Source: a virus
IMG/VR virus record: IMGVR_UViG_3300025120_000699
Location: 1-21,024 of that record
Length of the DNA stretch: 21,024 bases
Reading direction: 5' to 3' (one strand)
This document shows, in pieces, positions 2,013-20,638 of the stretch; the first letter of the stretch is position 1, and each line of letters starts with the position of its first letter. Both the position numbers and the translations under genes were made by a program. Under the pieces are notes generated by a model. The model was not told the origin of the DNA and searched no databases. It was given only the letters and a program-made list of their open reading frames with translations.

Positions 2013-3185
2013 ATGGCTATCTTAGATAGACCAATGTTTCAACGACCATTGACCAAGGACCAGCTACGTCAGTATGGAATACCGGCATTTGCTAATGGTG
2101 GTGTTGTAAACATGAGTAATGGTGGTTTGCCTTTTCTACCTAATAAACCACAAAATTCTGTTCCACCTTCATCAAAACAAGATTTATCTTCCATCCCATC
2201 TGGAACAGTTATTAGTAAGAAAGTAATAGAGAGAGATGGAAAACAGATAGAGGTTACTGAGACGGTTATAACTGGCGCTAGAGGAATAAAAGTAATACAA
2301 AAAAATGAAAGAGTACTTTTTGAACCAGGAAAAACAATACAGACTCCTAGAGGGGAAAAAGTGATTCCTGCTAAAGGTGAAGAACAGGAGCTCGGTGAAG
2401 TTGAGATAGAGGAAAAAGAAGAGAAAACAGATCCTCCAGCAGAGGATGCTCCAACAGTAGAACCTCCTGCCTCTACTACAGATGATCCAAGCGCTCCAAA
2501 AGAGAGAGAAAAAAGAGATACTCTTGCTGATCTCGTAAAAGAAAGATCTGATTTATATAAGCAGCTTTTAGGAGATCCAAAAGAAATGATGAAACAACAA
2601 GGATTTTTACAGCTTGCACAATTTGGTTTAAATCTAGCTTCTGCTAGAGGAGGTAATTTAGCAGAAAAAATTGCTAAATCTGCAAAAGATCCATTACAAG
2701 CTTTTGCACAATTAGCTCAACAAGCAGCTCGAGATGAAAGAGCAATTGATGTTGCTGCTATTGAGGCTGGCGAAGCAGAACTAGCTCAAATTAGAAAACG
2801 TGAAGAAGAGATGAGCAATCTAGAACAACAGGCAAAATATTTAGTTGAAACCGGAGTCATGAAAAATGAAAGAGCTGCAGTGGAATATATTTATGACGCA
2901 CAAAAAGGAGCAACTGGAAAAACTGCCACAGAACTATTTAGTTCAGGATATAATGCTGCACAGGGATTAGCAACAGGAGGAGCTCAGATAGTAGCCGGAG
3001 CAGTAGCTGCTGGCGGTCAAGTACCTAAAGGTAATGTATTTAATTCTCCTTTAACAGATGATGGTAAAGTTGACTTCGGAGCTTTAGAACCTAATGTTCT
3101 TTACATTGATCCTGATGAGCAAGTTTTCATGAAACCAGAAGCAAAGAGTGATAATATAATAGAATATAACTTTACGGTGTTCTAA
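2013..3185 (+). CDS. Virion-associated protein with Gly-Gly motif, acidic Pro/Glu linker and helical C-terminus
   Basis: A 390-residue protein. Residues 1-60 contain the repeat-like FANGGVV and MSNGG elements. Residues about 120-170 form an acidic Pro/Glu/Asp/Thr linker that looks disordered. Residues about 175-300 are charged and Ala-rich, likely coiled coil. The last ~60 residues look globular. A strong Shine-Dalgarno GGAGG (2004-2008) sits inside the end of the preceding gene, just before its TAG, and fixes the start at 2013. It lies between two virion genes and is followed after one base by the 1338-residue protein. I do not recognise a family beyond the Gly-Gly motif shared with neighbouring genes. 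A structural or tail-fibre-adaptor role is possible. Confidence 0.65.
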   Translation: MAILDRPMFQRPLTKDQLRQYGIPAFANGGVVNMSNGGLPFLPNKPQNSVPPSSKQDLSSIPSGTVISKKVIERDGKQIEVTETVITGARGIKVIQKNERVLFEPGKTIQTPRGEKVIPAKGEEQELGEVEIEEKEEKTDPPAEDAPTVEPPASTTDDPSAPKEREKRDTLADLVKERSDLYKQLLGDPKEMMKQQGFLQLAQFGLNLASARGGNLAEKIAKSAKDPLQAFAQLAQQAARDERAIDVAAIEAGEAELAQIRKREEEMSNLEQQAKYLVETGVMKNERAAVEYIYDAQKGATGKTATELFSSGYNAAQGLATGGAQIVAGAVAAGGQVPKGNVFNSPLTDDGKVDFGALEPNVLYIDPDEQVFMKPEAKSDNIIEYNFTVF

Positions 3186-8810: not shown

Positions 8811-8816
8811 AGAGTT
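8802..8816. terminator. Short palindrome at the convergent gene junction, possible weak bidirectional terminator
   Basis: AACTCTTAAAGAGTT is a perfect 15-base palindrome-like element (arms AACTC/GAGTT around TTAAA). It covers the overlapping stops of the endolysin and the minus-strand gene at 8807. Both sides are A/T-rich but no long T run follows, so the hairpin is weak. It could separate the two opposing transcripts or be only a by-product of the overlapping coding ends. Confidence 0.3.
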
Positions 8817-8983
8817 CTTCTAATAAAATTAGGGAACTGACCTTCTTCTTTAAAAAATCTATACGCTGCGTACCAATCTTTTTTGTACTCTGCTTGGCAG
8901 AATTCTTTGATGGATTCATCTTTATCTTCTTGCTTAAAGAAGTTTAAGAAATGATCTTTTGCTTTGTTGGTTAAGTTAAACAT
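8807..8983 (-). CDS. 58-residue protein at the end of the replication operon, unknown
   Basis: A minus-strand frame of 58 codons starting at the ATG complementary to 8981-8983, with a strong Shine-Dalgarno AAGGAG about six bases upstream (complement of 8991-8996). The protein is charged and aromatic, with Lys/Asp/Glu and many Phe, Trp and Tyr, for example KKDWYAAYRFFKEEG. No domain is recognised. The stop overlaps the endolysin stop. The good ribosome binding site and full codon run make it a credible gene, and it is the last one of the minus-strand cassette. Confidence 0.65.
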   Translation of the reverse strand: MFNLTNKAKDHFLNFFKQEDKDESIKEFCQAEYKKDWYAAYRFFKEEGQFPNFIRRTL

Positions 8984-9021
8984 TATTATCTCCTTGGTTT
9001 ATTTCGAAGAGAATATAATAC

Positions 9022-18130: not shown

Positions 18131-18877
18131 ATGAAAACTCAAATACACGAAACACAAAACTACAATATGTTTTCGTTAATTAACGGGAACAGACCGATTG
18201 AAAAGGATCGAGTCAAAAGACTTCAAAAAGAAATCAAACAGTTTGGTTTGAAGAACCCTATCTTAGTCACTCAAGATAAAGGTGTACTAGATGGTGGTCA
18301 CAGGCTAGAAGCTTGTGAAAATTTAGGAATACCTGTTAGGTATGTAATGGATCAAATCTACTCATCTGATAATAGAGTTTTAGATTTGATAAGAGCTATA
18401 AACAAAAATCAAAAAAATTGGACATCAGTTAATATTGGAAACTCTTACGCAGTATCCGAAGATAATGAGTTCTACAAAAGATATATGGATCTTGTAAACC
18501 TAGGAGTGTCTCACTCTTTTGTTTTACATGCCTGCACTGAATTTTCAAAAGGTAAGCCTGATGTTAAATGCACTACTAATGATTTTAAATCAGGTAATTT
18601 TACTTTACCGCTTGAGGTATATGAAATGATCAAAGGCTTAATTAAAATGTTAAAAAGTTCTGGGATGGATCCTAAGATCTGGAACAAACAATACTTTATC
18701 AGAGCCTTGATGAAACTTAGAAAAGTAAAAGAGTTTGATACGTATCGTTTCATAGAAAACTTTGAGAGATTTCCATATGAGTGGAAAGACGCATATCAAA
18801 CCATGGACAATTTAAGAAGTATTCTTCATGTTCATAATTATAGAAACAGAGATAAAGCTAAATACTTTATAGAATAG
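18131..18877 (+). CDS. ParB/Srx-domain protein
   Basis: A 248-residue protein. Residues about 12-75 form a ParB N-terminal (ParB/sulfiredoxin) domain: INGNRPIEKDRVKRLQKEI, ILVTQDKGVLDGGHRLEA with the conserved DGGHR at 54-58, and a following NLGIPV. In chromosomal ParB this domain binds CTP; in phages, relatives act as nucleases or regulators. No clear helix-turn-helix follows. The rest (about 90-248) is helical, basic and aromatic, and I do not recognise it. It has a good ribosome binding site, AAGGAC, six bases before the ATG, and leads an operon that also encodes a ribbon-helix-helix protein. It could be a DNA-binding regulator or nuclease; the sequence does not decide. Confidence 0.8.
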   Translation: MKTQIHETQNYNMFSLINGNRPIEKDRVKRLQKEIKQFGLKNPILVTQDKGVLDGGHRLEACENLGIPVRYVMDQIYSSDNRVLDLIRAINKNQKNWTSVNIGNSYAVSEDNEFYKRYMDLVNLGVSHSFVLHACTEFSKGKPDVKCTTNDFKSGNFTLPLEVYEMIKGLIKMLKSSGMDPKIWNKQYFIRALMKLRKVKEFDTYRFIENFERFPYEWKDAYQTMDNLRSILHVHNYRNRDKAKYFIE

Positions 18878-18889
18878 AAAGGAAAGATA

Positions 18890-19108
18890 ATGAGTAAGTC
18901 AAACGAATATGCTTTAGAGTATGATAATAAACTAAAAGAGTTGTATTCTAAAGTAGAAGAAGCGGTCATAGCGATCGACAAAGTAGAAGAATTAGAGGGG
19001 TTTCAACTCCTTAGAAAACAACACAAAGAAATAGACTTTGATCTTCTTAAAAAACAAACAGAAGAATTTTTAAGTTTGATTGATGATTATATTCGAGGAG
19101 AATATTAA
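18890..19108 (+). CDS. 72-residue helical acidic protein, unknown
   Basis: A small protein that looks almost wholly helical and coiled-coil-like, rich in Glu, Lys and Leu (for example LKELYSKVEEAVIAIDKVEE). It has a clear Shine-Dalgarno, GAAAGGAAAG, shortly before the ATG. It lies 12 bases after the ParB-domain gene and overlaps the next gene by one base (TAATG), so all three are one translation unit. No family is recognised; a partner or regulator of its neighbours is possible. Confidence 0.6.
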   Translation: MSKSNEYALEYDNKLKELYSKVEEAVIAIDKVEELEGFQLLRKQHKEIDFDLLKKQTEEFLSLIDDYIRGEY

Positions 19109-19263
19109 TGACAGATATAACTAAATATAAATCAATTATCGTGAGATTAGAAACACACGCTAAGTTAAAATCGCTGGCAGGGAAAGATAAAAAAATTTCA
19201 GGTATTGTTTCTCAGCTTGTTGATAAGGAATGGAAGAAAGAACACAAGAGAAGTGCTCAGTAA
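19108..19263 (+). CDS. 51-residue ribbon-helix-helix (Arc/CopG-like) DNA-binding protein
   Basis: A frame of 51 codons starting in a TAATG overlap, with GAGGAG (19095-19100) eight bases upstream as a strong ribosome binding site. Residues about 7-14 (YKSIIVRL) form the alternating strand typical of the RHH motif, followed by helix A (ETHAKLKSLAGKD) and helix B (ISGIVSQLVDKEW). This is the whole length of a minimal Arc-type repressor. RHH dimers bind short inverted repeats, and two promoter-associated repeats lie nearby (16151-16168 and 18074-18095), one of them in its own operon promoter. It is therefore a candidate autoregulator of the early block. The fold call is by pattern. Confidence 0.75.
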   Translation: MTDITKYKSIIVRLETHAKLKSLAGKDKKISGIVSQLVDKEWKKEHKRSAQ

Positions 19264-19265
19264 TG

Positions 19266-19428
19266 AAGAGAGGGGGTTCGCTCTCTCTTGATTACTGATA
19301 GCGAGAATCAGTAATTATCTCAAACGTCTACCTCCCAAATCAGATGGATGAGATCTGACTTGCTCTCGCAAGACCGACCAAGGGGGTTTTAACATAATGT
19401 CTCCGCATAGTAAGTGCTCCCTTGGTTC
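19266..19428 (+). ncRNA. Chain of hairpins: candidate structured RNA or 5' leader of the 36-residue peptide
   Basis: The 182 bases between the RHH gene and the gene at 19446 hold no credible coding frame but many inverted repeats. Hairpin 1 (19269-19288) is an 8-bp stem with two G-U pairs capped by UUCG. Hairpin 2 has ATTACTGAT (19291-19299) pairing perfectly with ATCAGTAAT (19307-19315). Hairpin 3 pairs 19336-19345 with 19353-19362, nine of ten bases. Hairpin 4 is CTTGC (19359-19363), TCTC, GCAAG (19368-19372), and competes with hairpin 3 for CTTG. Hairpin 5 pairs ACCAAGGG (19377-19384) with CCCTTGGT (19419-19426) around a 34-base loop. It ends just before the peptide's GAGGA ribosome site. 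It matches no RNA class I know. Confidence 0.5.
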
Positions 19429-19445
19429 AAAATAGAGGAAAAAAC

Positions 19446-19556
19446 ATGCAAGAATCAATGAAAGAATTAACAATTGAAGAGTTAATGGAGATAGTAAAGC
19501 TGGCTCAAAAAGAAATAGACAGAAGAACTATTAAAAAAGTCGACGATAGGAATTAA
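19446..19556 (+). CDS. 36-residue helical peptide, unknown
   Basis: A short frame with a strong ribosome binding site (GAGGA, about seven bases before the ATG). The peptide looks amphipathic and helical throughout: KELTIEELMEIVKLAQKEI then a basic stretch and KKVDDRN. No membrane segment. It follows the hairpin-rich region, which may be its leader. Its codon pattern and ribosome site make it credible despite its size. Confidence 0.5.
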   Translation: MQESMKELTIEELMEIVKLAQKEIDRRTIKKVDDRN

Positions 19557-19574: not shown

Positions 19575-19615
19575 TTGACTTTTCCCTATTAATTTATCTA
19601 AAAAATATATATAAT
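19575..19615 (+). promoter_or_regulatory. Possible promoter for the gene at 19677
   Basis: TTGACT (19575-19580) is a good -35 box, but the hexamer 16-17 bases on (around 19597, TCTAAA) is poor. A perfect TATAAT lies at 19610-19615, too far from TTGACT to pair with it. The stretch is very A/T-rich (many TATA steps), so promoter activity is likely but the exact boxes are unclear. It lacks the CCTATAT element of the other two promoters. Confidence 0.35.
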
Positions 19616-19625
19616 TTTATATAAG

Positions 19626-19662
19626 AGCGGGAGTATTTCCCTGTTTTCGATCTCCCGCTTTT
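19626..19662 (+). terminator. GC-rich hairpin followed by TTTT, terminator or attenuator/leader hairpin
   Basis: AGCGGGAG (19626-19633) pairs perfectly with CTCCCGCT (19652-19659) around an 18-base loop, and the downstream arm runs into TTTT (19659-19662). It is by far the most GC-rich stem of the region. It looks like an intrinsic terminator for the regulatory operon; if the TATAAT at 19610 is a promoter, it would instead sit in the leader of the next gene and act as an attenuator or stabiliser. Confidence 0.55.
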
Positions 19663-19676
19663 ACAAGGACAACAAT

Positions 19677-19901
19677 ATGTTGAACGAGATAAAAACAAAA
19701 ATCGTCCTCGCTGTCCAACGACAACGAATGTACGATCCGGTATTGAAAGATACAGTTGACAAAGTCTTAGTGACTTTCAACGACGGGAATGTAAATGGTT
19801 ATCTTGCTGAAGAGTGGGATAGTATGTTGAGCCAAGTAGACTCAATGTTAGAGAAGGCTTTTATTATTGAACCGAAAGCTACTCGACCGCAGCTCGACTA
19901 A
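19677..19901 (+). CDS. 74-residue protein, unknown
   Basis: A small soluble protein, helical at the ends, with a central strand-rich part (KVLVTFNDGNVNGYLAEEW). Ribosome binding site AAGGAC lies about eight bases before the ATG. It follows the GC-rich hairpin and is the last plus-strand gene of this block; its stop overlaps the convergent stop of the minus-strand gene at 19898. No family is recognised. Higher GC at its 5' end than its neighbours is noticeable by eye. Confidence 0.58.
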   Translation: MLNEIKTKIVLAVQRQRMYDPVLKDTVDKVLVTFNDGNVNGYLAEEWDSMLSQVDSMLEKAFIIEPKATRPQLD

Positions 19902-20131: not shown

Positions 20132-20638
20132 TTAAATAGAATATTCCCAACGGACTTTTGGAACTGCTGTTTGTACTTTATTTCTAGACCTGGATTTTCT
20201 TGCCCATTCGCCCCCAGTACTAATGTTCGATTGTGTCCAATTGGCAGCTTTATAGATCGTACCTAAGTGCACTGCCGTATCTTGATAGGATATTACCTTT
20301 TCTATGTCGGGAAATTTTTCTTTAATTGTTTTAATCATTTTAGAGATAACATATGTTGCTGTATTTTTAGGACAATGTTTACTTAGAGCTAGCCGACGCA
20401 GCTCTAGTAGTGTTTTATTACTTAACATTCGAGCCACAGGGGATGACCAAATGCCAACACCGACGACTGCTTCGTCTATAATAAATAAAAAACAAATATA
20501 ATTTTTAGATCGCCACACATTACTTGGATGAAGTTGAGGTAATCGAGAGTGCCATACCTCGTTTAGTTTACAAGCGACAGCTGCTGAGGTTTCTTGTATT
20601 TCTATGTTCAAGTTATTTCTTTTTTGTTCACGATCCAC
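20132..20638 (-). CDS. Mom-like GNAT-fold protein, putative DNA adenine modification
   Basis: A 168-residue protein resembling the phage Mu Mom family, which has a GNAT acetyltransferase fold and converts adenine in DNA to N6-carbamoylmethyladenine, protecting it from host restriction. Visible signatures: a strand pair VVGVGIWSSPVARM, the LELRRLALS strand, a helix with NTATYVISKMIKTIKEKFP, and ISYQDTAVHLGTIYKAANW, matching the Ser-Tyr-x-Asp and Gly-x-Ile-Tyr-x-Ala-x-Asn-(Trp/Phe) pattern of Mom relatives. Start is GTG at 20638 with a poor ribosome site and 31 bases overlap with the upstream gene, so it may begin a little later. The C-terminus is basic, fitting DNA binding. A plain acetyltransferase is the alternative. 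Confidence 0.7.
   Translation of the reverse strand: MDREQKRNNLNIEIQETSAAVACKLNEVWHSRLPQLHPSNVWRSKNYICFLFIIDEAVVGVGIWSSPVARMLSNKTLLELRRLALSKHCPKNTATYVISKMIKTIKEKFPDIEKVISYQDTAVHLGTIYKAANWTQSNISTGGEWARKSRSRNKVQTAVPKVRWEYSI

Follow-up and report, generated by a model that had tools for sequence, protein, structure and literature searches.

A conserved structured RNA element in a clade of marine phages

Orphan structured RNAs encoded by phages, such as GOLLD and ROOL, are a known yet poorly understood kind of RNA. Another phage RNA, the c4 antisense RNA, is processed from a longer transcript. GOLLD members are often longer than 800 nt and lie near tRNA islands, and both GOLLD and ROOL are RNAs of phages and prophages, of unknown function and with elaborate covarying folds that include pseudoknots (PMC12286853). 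Comparative genomics has additionally yielded the manA, wcaG and PhotoRC-II RNAs of marine metagenomes and cyanophages, and c4 antisense RNA is likewise listed among the structured RNAs of phages (PMC2864571). The put RNAs of phage HK022, about 70 nt long with two stem-loops and located downstream of early promoters, act alone on RNA polymerase, without a protein partner (PMC9378689). Here, we present a 171-base element (19257-19427, plus strand) that separates two small genes in the genome of an uncultured marine phage, represented by the 21,024-nucleotide IMG/VR record IMGVR_UViG_3300025120_000699 (hereafter the window), which is almost certainly a real conserved RNA.

The element resembles GOLLD and ROOL in being phage-encoded, of unknown function and elaborately folded, but its homologues measure 170-272 nt, no tRNA or tmRNA gene was found with ARAGORN, and neither family model matches it. 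Like manA, wcaG and PhotoRC-II it is a structured RNA of marine phages; these families are included in Rfam, however, where none matches the element, and the element has no fixed downstream gene. It also differs from c4 antisense RNA in giving no Rfam match to RF01695. With HK022 put it shares its location in a phage operon, but it has three or more hairpins and no promoter shown nearby, so that its layout is unlike the short, two-stem-loop, promoter-proximal arrangement of put. A search of Rfam 15 (4227 families) at the gathering thresholds gave no match either in the window or in 12 related loci, and permissive E-values added nothing credible, in agreement with the original prediction for this locus, which had recognised no known riboswitch or ribozyme core. 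Nothing relevant on pelagiphage noncoding RNA was found in the open-access literature, which limits any claim that the element has not been described before. The parts of the element and the adjacent genes are as follows, in coordinates of the window.

19108-19263, plus strand: upstream gene of 51 amino acids, ribbon-helix-helix-like by eye
19257-19427, plus strand: whole element (core, arm A and arm B), from inverted repeats, fold and homologue alignment
19257-19264, plus strand: strand X (TCAGTAAT), partner of Y, containing the UAA stop codon (19261-19263) of the upstream gene
19266-19289, plus strand: upper stem of arm A, UUCG-capped in the window, with four pairs changed on both sides and one pair at E = 0.02 against the tree-based null
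19291-19299, plus strand: strand Y (ATTACTGAT), common to X:Y and Y:Z
19300-19306, plus strand: invariant AGCGAGA, the loop of the Y:Z hairpin
19307-19315, plus strand: strand Z (ATCAGTAAT), partner of Y in 29 of 29 distinct homologues
19318-19321, plus strand: invariant UCUC, which may pair with GAGA of the P4 loop
19326-19338, plus strand: invariant GUCUACCUCCCAA, mostly unpaired in predictions and including an anti-Shine-Dalgarno-like ACCUCC
19340-19358, plus strand: hairpin P4 (UCAGA/UCUGA), with several different fully paired stems among homologues
19346-19353: invariant GGAUGAGA in the P4 loop
19364-19369, plus strand: UCUCGC, the 3' strand of P2
19376-19427, plus strand: arm B hairpin (GACCAAGGGGGT/GCTCCCTTGGTT), with four significant covarying pairs
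19400-19407, plus strand: loop motif UCUCCGCA, located in arm B in the window; the motif or a near variant occurs in 38 of 38 elements
19446-19556, plus strand: downstream gene for a 36-residue peptide; the family is conserved, but some relatives have a different gene here or none
19677-19901: conserved gene of 74 amino acids, preceded by the element in all 34 contigs that reach far enough upstream

From 5' to 3', the element consists of X (UCAGUAAU), arm A, Y (AUUACUGAU), AGCGAGA, Z (AUCAGUAAU), UCUC, GUCUACCUCCCAA, P4 with its GGAUGAGA loop, UCUCGC and arm B, and the core blocks AGCGAGA, UCUC, GUCUACCUCCCAA, GGAUGAGA and CUCGCA are nearly invariant. P2 would join GCGAGA (within AGCGAGA) to UCUCGC and is predicted to be a pseudoknot if Y:Z forms. 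A covariance model, built partly from the window sequence itself, matches 19257-19375 with 120 bits. Both side arms vary freely yet keep pairing: arm A is a UUCG-capped stem in the window but elsewhere can branch and reach about 140 nt, extended by up to about 110 nt, and arm B varies as well. In homologues with a long arm A (such as L105, L107 and L109) the branched domain contains a covarying hairpin (GGGC-UUCG-GCUC, GGGCUG...CAGCCC) followed by a conserved GGAAAG.

All five inverted repeats reported in the original prediction were recovered, namely 19257-19272/19283-19298 (16 nt, 94%), 19291-19299/19307-19315 (9 bp, perfect), 19317-19329/19342-19354 (13 nt, 77%), 19336-19345/19353-19362 (10 nt, 90%) and 19377-19384/19419-19426 (8 bp, perfect). 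The proposal of a hairpin-rich RNA was borne out as well, as the repeats exceed chance: the plus-strand RNA of 19255-19440 folds at -69.4 kcal/mol (z = -5.1), with 0 of 200 shuffles equally stable, compared with z = -2.0 for the minus strand, and the element itself (19257-19427, plus strand) gives z of about -5 to -6. The region had been placed at 19266-19428; the element spans 19257-19427 and begins in the last codons of the upstream gene. It is not, as had been stated, the largest non-coding stretch of the window, since the gap at 19264-19445 (182 nt) is second to that at 8811-9021 (211 nt). The extra-stable form of the UUCG tetraloop is C(UUCG)G; the UUCG tip noted earlier is indeed present in arm A of the window, but its closing pair makes it G(UUCG)C.

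Homologues were sought in IMG/VR using flanking proteins and DNA patterns of the core, and the element was found in about 50 contigs, all of one marine phage clade. From these, 38 distinct elements were extracted and 29 distinct cores aligned. As a test independent of the core patterns, the 74-aa gene was located in 38 contigs, and the RNA was present in all 34 of those reaching far enough upstream, at a distance of 219-954 nt from the gene. Only a single copy was present in each of five larger records examined. The core is 97.6% identical, against an average of 69% at third codon positions of the 74-aa gene, a comparison that is partly biased as some core blocks served as search anchors; the first search pattern left GUCUACCUCCCAA, GGAUGAGA and CUCGCA unfixed, and all three are invariant in its matches too. 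The element gave no blastn match in catalogued phages, and the covariance model found no match in HTVC023P and 023Pt_psg01, cultured relatives with the closest DNA polymerases found. Two pelagiphages rank among the cultured phages with the most similar DNA polymerase (42-49% identity), which makes a marine bacterium the probable host. Among 84,980 prokaryote species genomes there were 31 pattern matches, which is no more than chance, and none had the remaining core. Candidates from looser DNA patterns (L106, L143, L189, L190, L191 and L192) were discarded as chance matches rather than distant homologues, the covariance model giving no real match in L189-L192, and the long non-coding stretches of two distant relatives (L011 and L013) fold no better than shuffles.

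Covariation was assessed against a phylogeny-aware null in which substitutions were re-dealt along a FastTree tree, with the strands of arm B and part of P4 placed in the alignment by pairing and those of arm A anchored by X and Y. Of more than 9,000 column pairs, the eight with the highest scores are all located in predicted helices, and five of them have E < 0.05 (four in arm B, one in arm A). In the alignment of 29 distinct cores, both partners have changed at four pairs of arm A, where 96% of cells are paired, as opposed to 34-50% when the partners are slid. P4 is borderline (E = 0.29) and Y:Z is not significant in this test; the P4 stem reads TCAGA/TCTGA in the window and AAACAGA/TCTGTTT, AGCTAGAA/TTTTAGCT, AATCAGA/TTTGATT or AAGCTAGA/TCTAGTTT elsewhere. 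The covariation supports arms A and B formally and P4 less formally, while P2, UCUC/GAGA and X:Y hardly vary and these pairings are therefore putative. The original prediction had named covariation across homologues as its check and a conserved protein frame through the region as its refutation; covariation beyond the phylogenetic null, by which a structured RNA is recognised, was found in arms A and B, and no protein frame is conserved, since indels in the arms and the core interrupt every one. Furthermore, distinct helix variants include 47 wobble pairs against 1 A-C mismatch, and in 38 of 38 homologues it is the plus strand that folds better (mean z -6.2, against -3.9 for the minus strand), which together point to selection on the plus-strand RNA.

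The loop motif UCUCCGCA, or a near variant such as UCUCUUGCA, is found in an arm of every one of the 38 elements. Its usual place is arm A; the five elements whose arm A is capped by UUCG (the type of the window) carry it in arm B instead, and a few elements have it in both arms. That the motif is kept while changing arm suggests that it docks or binds.

Two mutually exclusive pairings had also been proposed, and exclusive pairing is conserved for a different set of helices. The hairpin originally named, CTTGC-TCTC-GCAAG, was rejected as a conserved alternative fold, its middle pair being broken in 20 of 29 homologues and its covariation no higher than in shuffles. The conserved alternatives are X:Y and Y:Z, as X and Z share UCAGUAAU and both are complementary to Y. 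X:Y is paired in 99% without any double change; Y:Z is paired in 100%, includes several wobbles and shows a compensatory change (U-A to C-G), which is a single event and has no counterpart in X:Y. Nested energies, from which P2 is left out as a pseudoknot of the Y:Z fold, favour X:Y by roughly 8-15 kcal/mol, and our hypothesis is that both folds are used. A possible leader peptide starting from an AUG in X (MKRGGSLSLDY) is open in the window, but its frame is lost in homologues.

The element fills the entire gap between its neighbouring genes, of which neither is constant. Three gene families precede it among the homologues, and across these the UAA of strand X serves as the upstream stop codon in 28 of 38 cases, the stop lying at most 11 nt from X in the rest. 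The upstream protein of the window had been called a ribbon-helix-helix regulator, a resemblance visible by eye that sequence searches of Pfam, NCBIfam and PDB did not confirm. Downstream, the next start codon is 15-24 nt past arm B in most homologues (18 nt in the window), and it may belong to the 36-residue peptide family, to another small gene family or to a 74-aa gene of a different kind, while in about 8 relatives no gene comes between the element and the conserved block beyond it. It is thus unlikely that the element is a leader specific to the 36-residue peptide, and the original option of a switch-like leader is weakened: the constant downstream gene family of riboswitches and cis-acting leaders is missing here, and judged by gene context the element is not a simple leader. 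In L022 (also in L080) an element close to that of the window shares its downstream gene, whereas the gene upstream is unrelated, an arrangement that gives the element the look of a joint at which gene modules have recombined. Neither a promoter nor a terminator belonging to the element was found, and possible pairing partners of GUCUACCUCCCAA at other phage sites, searched within the window, were matches at chance level alone.

Other features of the locus include another conserved non-coding block (19585-19676), immediately ahead of the 74-aa gene, with a promoter-like A/T-rich stretch (TATATAA...ATAAGAG) and then a hairpin GCGGGAG (19627-19633)...CTCCCGC (19652-19658) TTTT, whose loop is a conserved CCCTGTTTCGA and whose stem in L169 (GCCGGAAG/CTTCCGGC) is a compensatory set. 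Where relatives lack a gene behind the element (L036 at about 3000-3180; L034, L071, L075 and L099) another structured stretch follows, which in L036 reads GATCGGTAGGG...CCTACGCC...GTACGT...ACGTAC-like and, with its inverted repeat and T run, is perhaps a long-loop terminator. A gene for a ParB-like 248-aa protein is located upstream of the block (18131-18877, plus strand; PHROG 12305), and a Mom-like DNA modification gene adjoins the locus (20132-20638, minus strand; Pfam PF25680, PHROG 1384).

Taken as a stand-alone RNA within the operon, the element would represent a new family of phage structured RNA that acts as RNA in its own right, a reading to which we assign a probability of about 0.5. 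The RNA would be transcribed together with the operon and would not be a switch for one neighbouring gene; the UCUCCGCA-type loop, in either arm, may dock on the core or bind a partner, and contacts to a target, for which the host ribosome or host RNA polymerase are plausible, may be made by two exposed segments, ACCUCCC and GGAUGAGA. The duplicated X and Z would allow the RNA to switch folds, possibly in response to a ribosome halting at the UAA of strand X. The complete scheme, in which the core of a new class of phage RNA acts on such a host machine, a docking loop interchangeable between arms keeps that core in shape and termination at UAA drives the X/Z switch, is offered tentatively and as a whole is rather unlikely.

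Slightly less probable again is an intercistronic element for mRNA stability or processing, which would guard the upstream message from 3' exonucleases or mark a cleavage site and would not act in trans. The tight match of the element ends to the neighbouring stop and start codons also fits such a cis-acting role, as do its constant position directly after a stop codon, its highly stable arms and the terminator-like hairpin that lies further on in several relatives without a following gene, but simple stability elements need neither a near-invariant unpaired core nor a loop motif that is retained even as it changes arm. Two further readings we consider doubtful, each to the same degree and more so than the stability element. 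One is a cis-acting antitermination RNA that, as nascent RNA, binds RNA polymerase and permits read-through of downstream terminators, for which HK022 put provides the precedent of an RNA acting alone on polymerase (PMC9378689). The phage operon location, the indifference to which gene follows and the conserved or occasional terminator-like hairpins downstream agree with this, but the element is far larger than the roughly 70-nt put RNA and is situated at the distal end of the gene block, where no promoter was shown immediately ahead of it. The other is a regulatory switch for the adjacent genes, in which a ribosome at the UAA in X, or a ligand in riboswitch-like fashion, would free Y for Z and alter translation of the next gene. 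The shared complementarity of X and Z to Y, the frequent stop codon inside X and the short spacing to the next start are as expected for such a switch, yet neither fold sequesters a Shine-Dalgarno sequence or a terminator, no leader peptide frame is conserved, and the following gene is absent or of differing families.

A catalytic RNA, for example a self-cleaving ribozyme, is very improbable: the element is small and pseudoknot-capable, with invariant unpaired residues and an arm-loop motif, but it matches no Rfam ribozyme family even at permissive thresholds. Least probable is the DNA-level site contemplated in the original prediction (an origin, packaging site or protein-binding array), with which the inverted repeats and single copy per genome would agree, but which we rejected on the strand asymmetry of both wobble pairs and folding.

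The element, in our favoured reading a stand-alone phage RNA, is nearly unchanged across about 50 related contigs, although the genes on both sides differ. Being small, more tightly conserved than a neighbouring gene and confined to one marine phage clade, it is tractable for probing and structure work, and the arm-switching loop kept in all homologues constitutes an unusual natural experiment on RNA tertiary design. Should the RNA act on the host, it would represent a mechanism of phage takeover that protein-centred annotation has missed.
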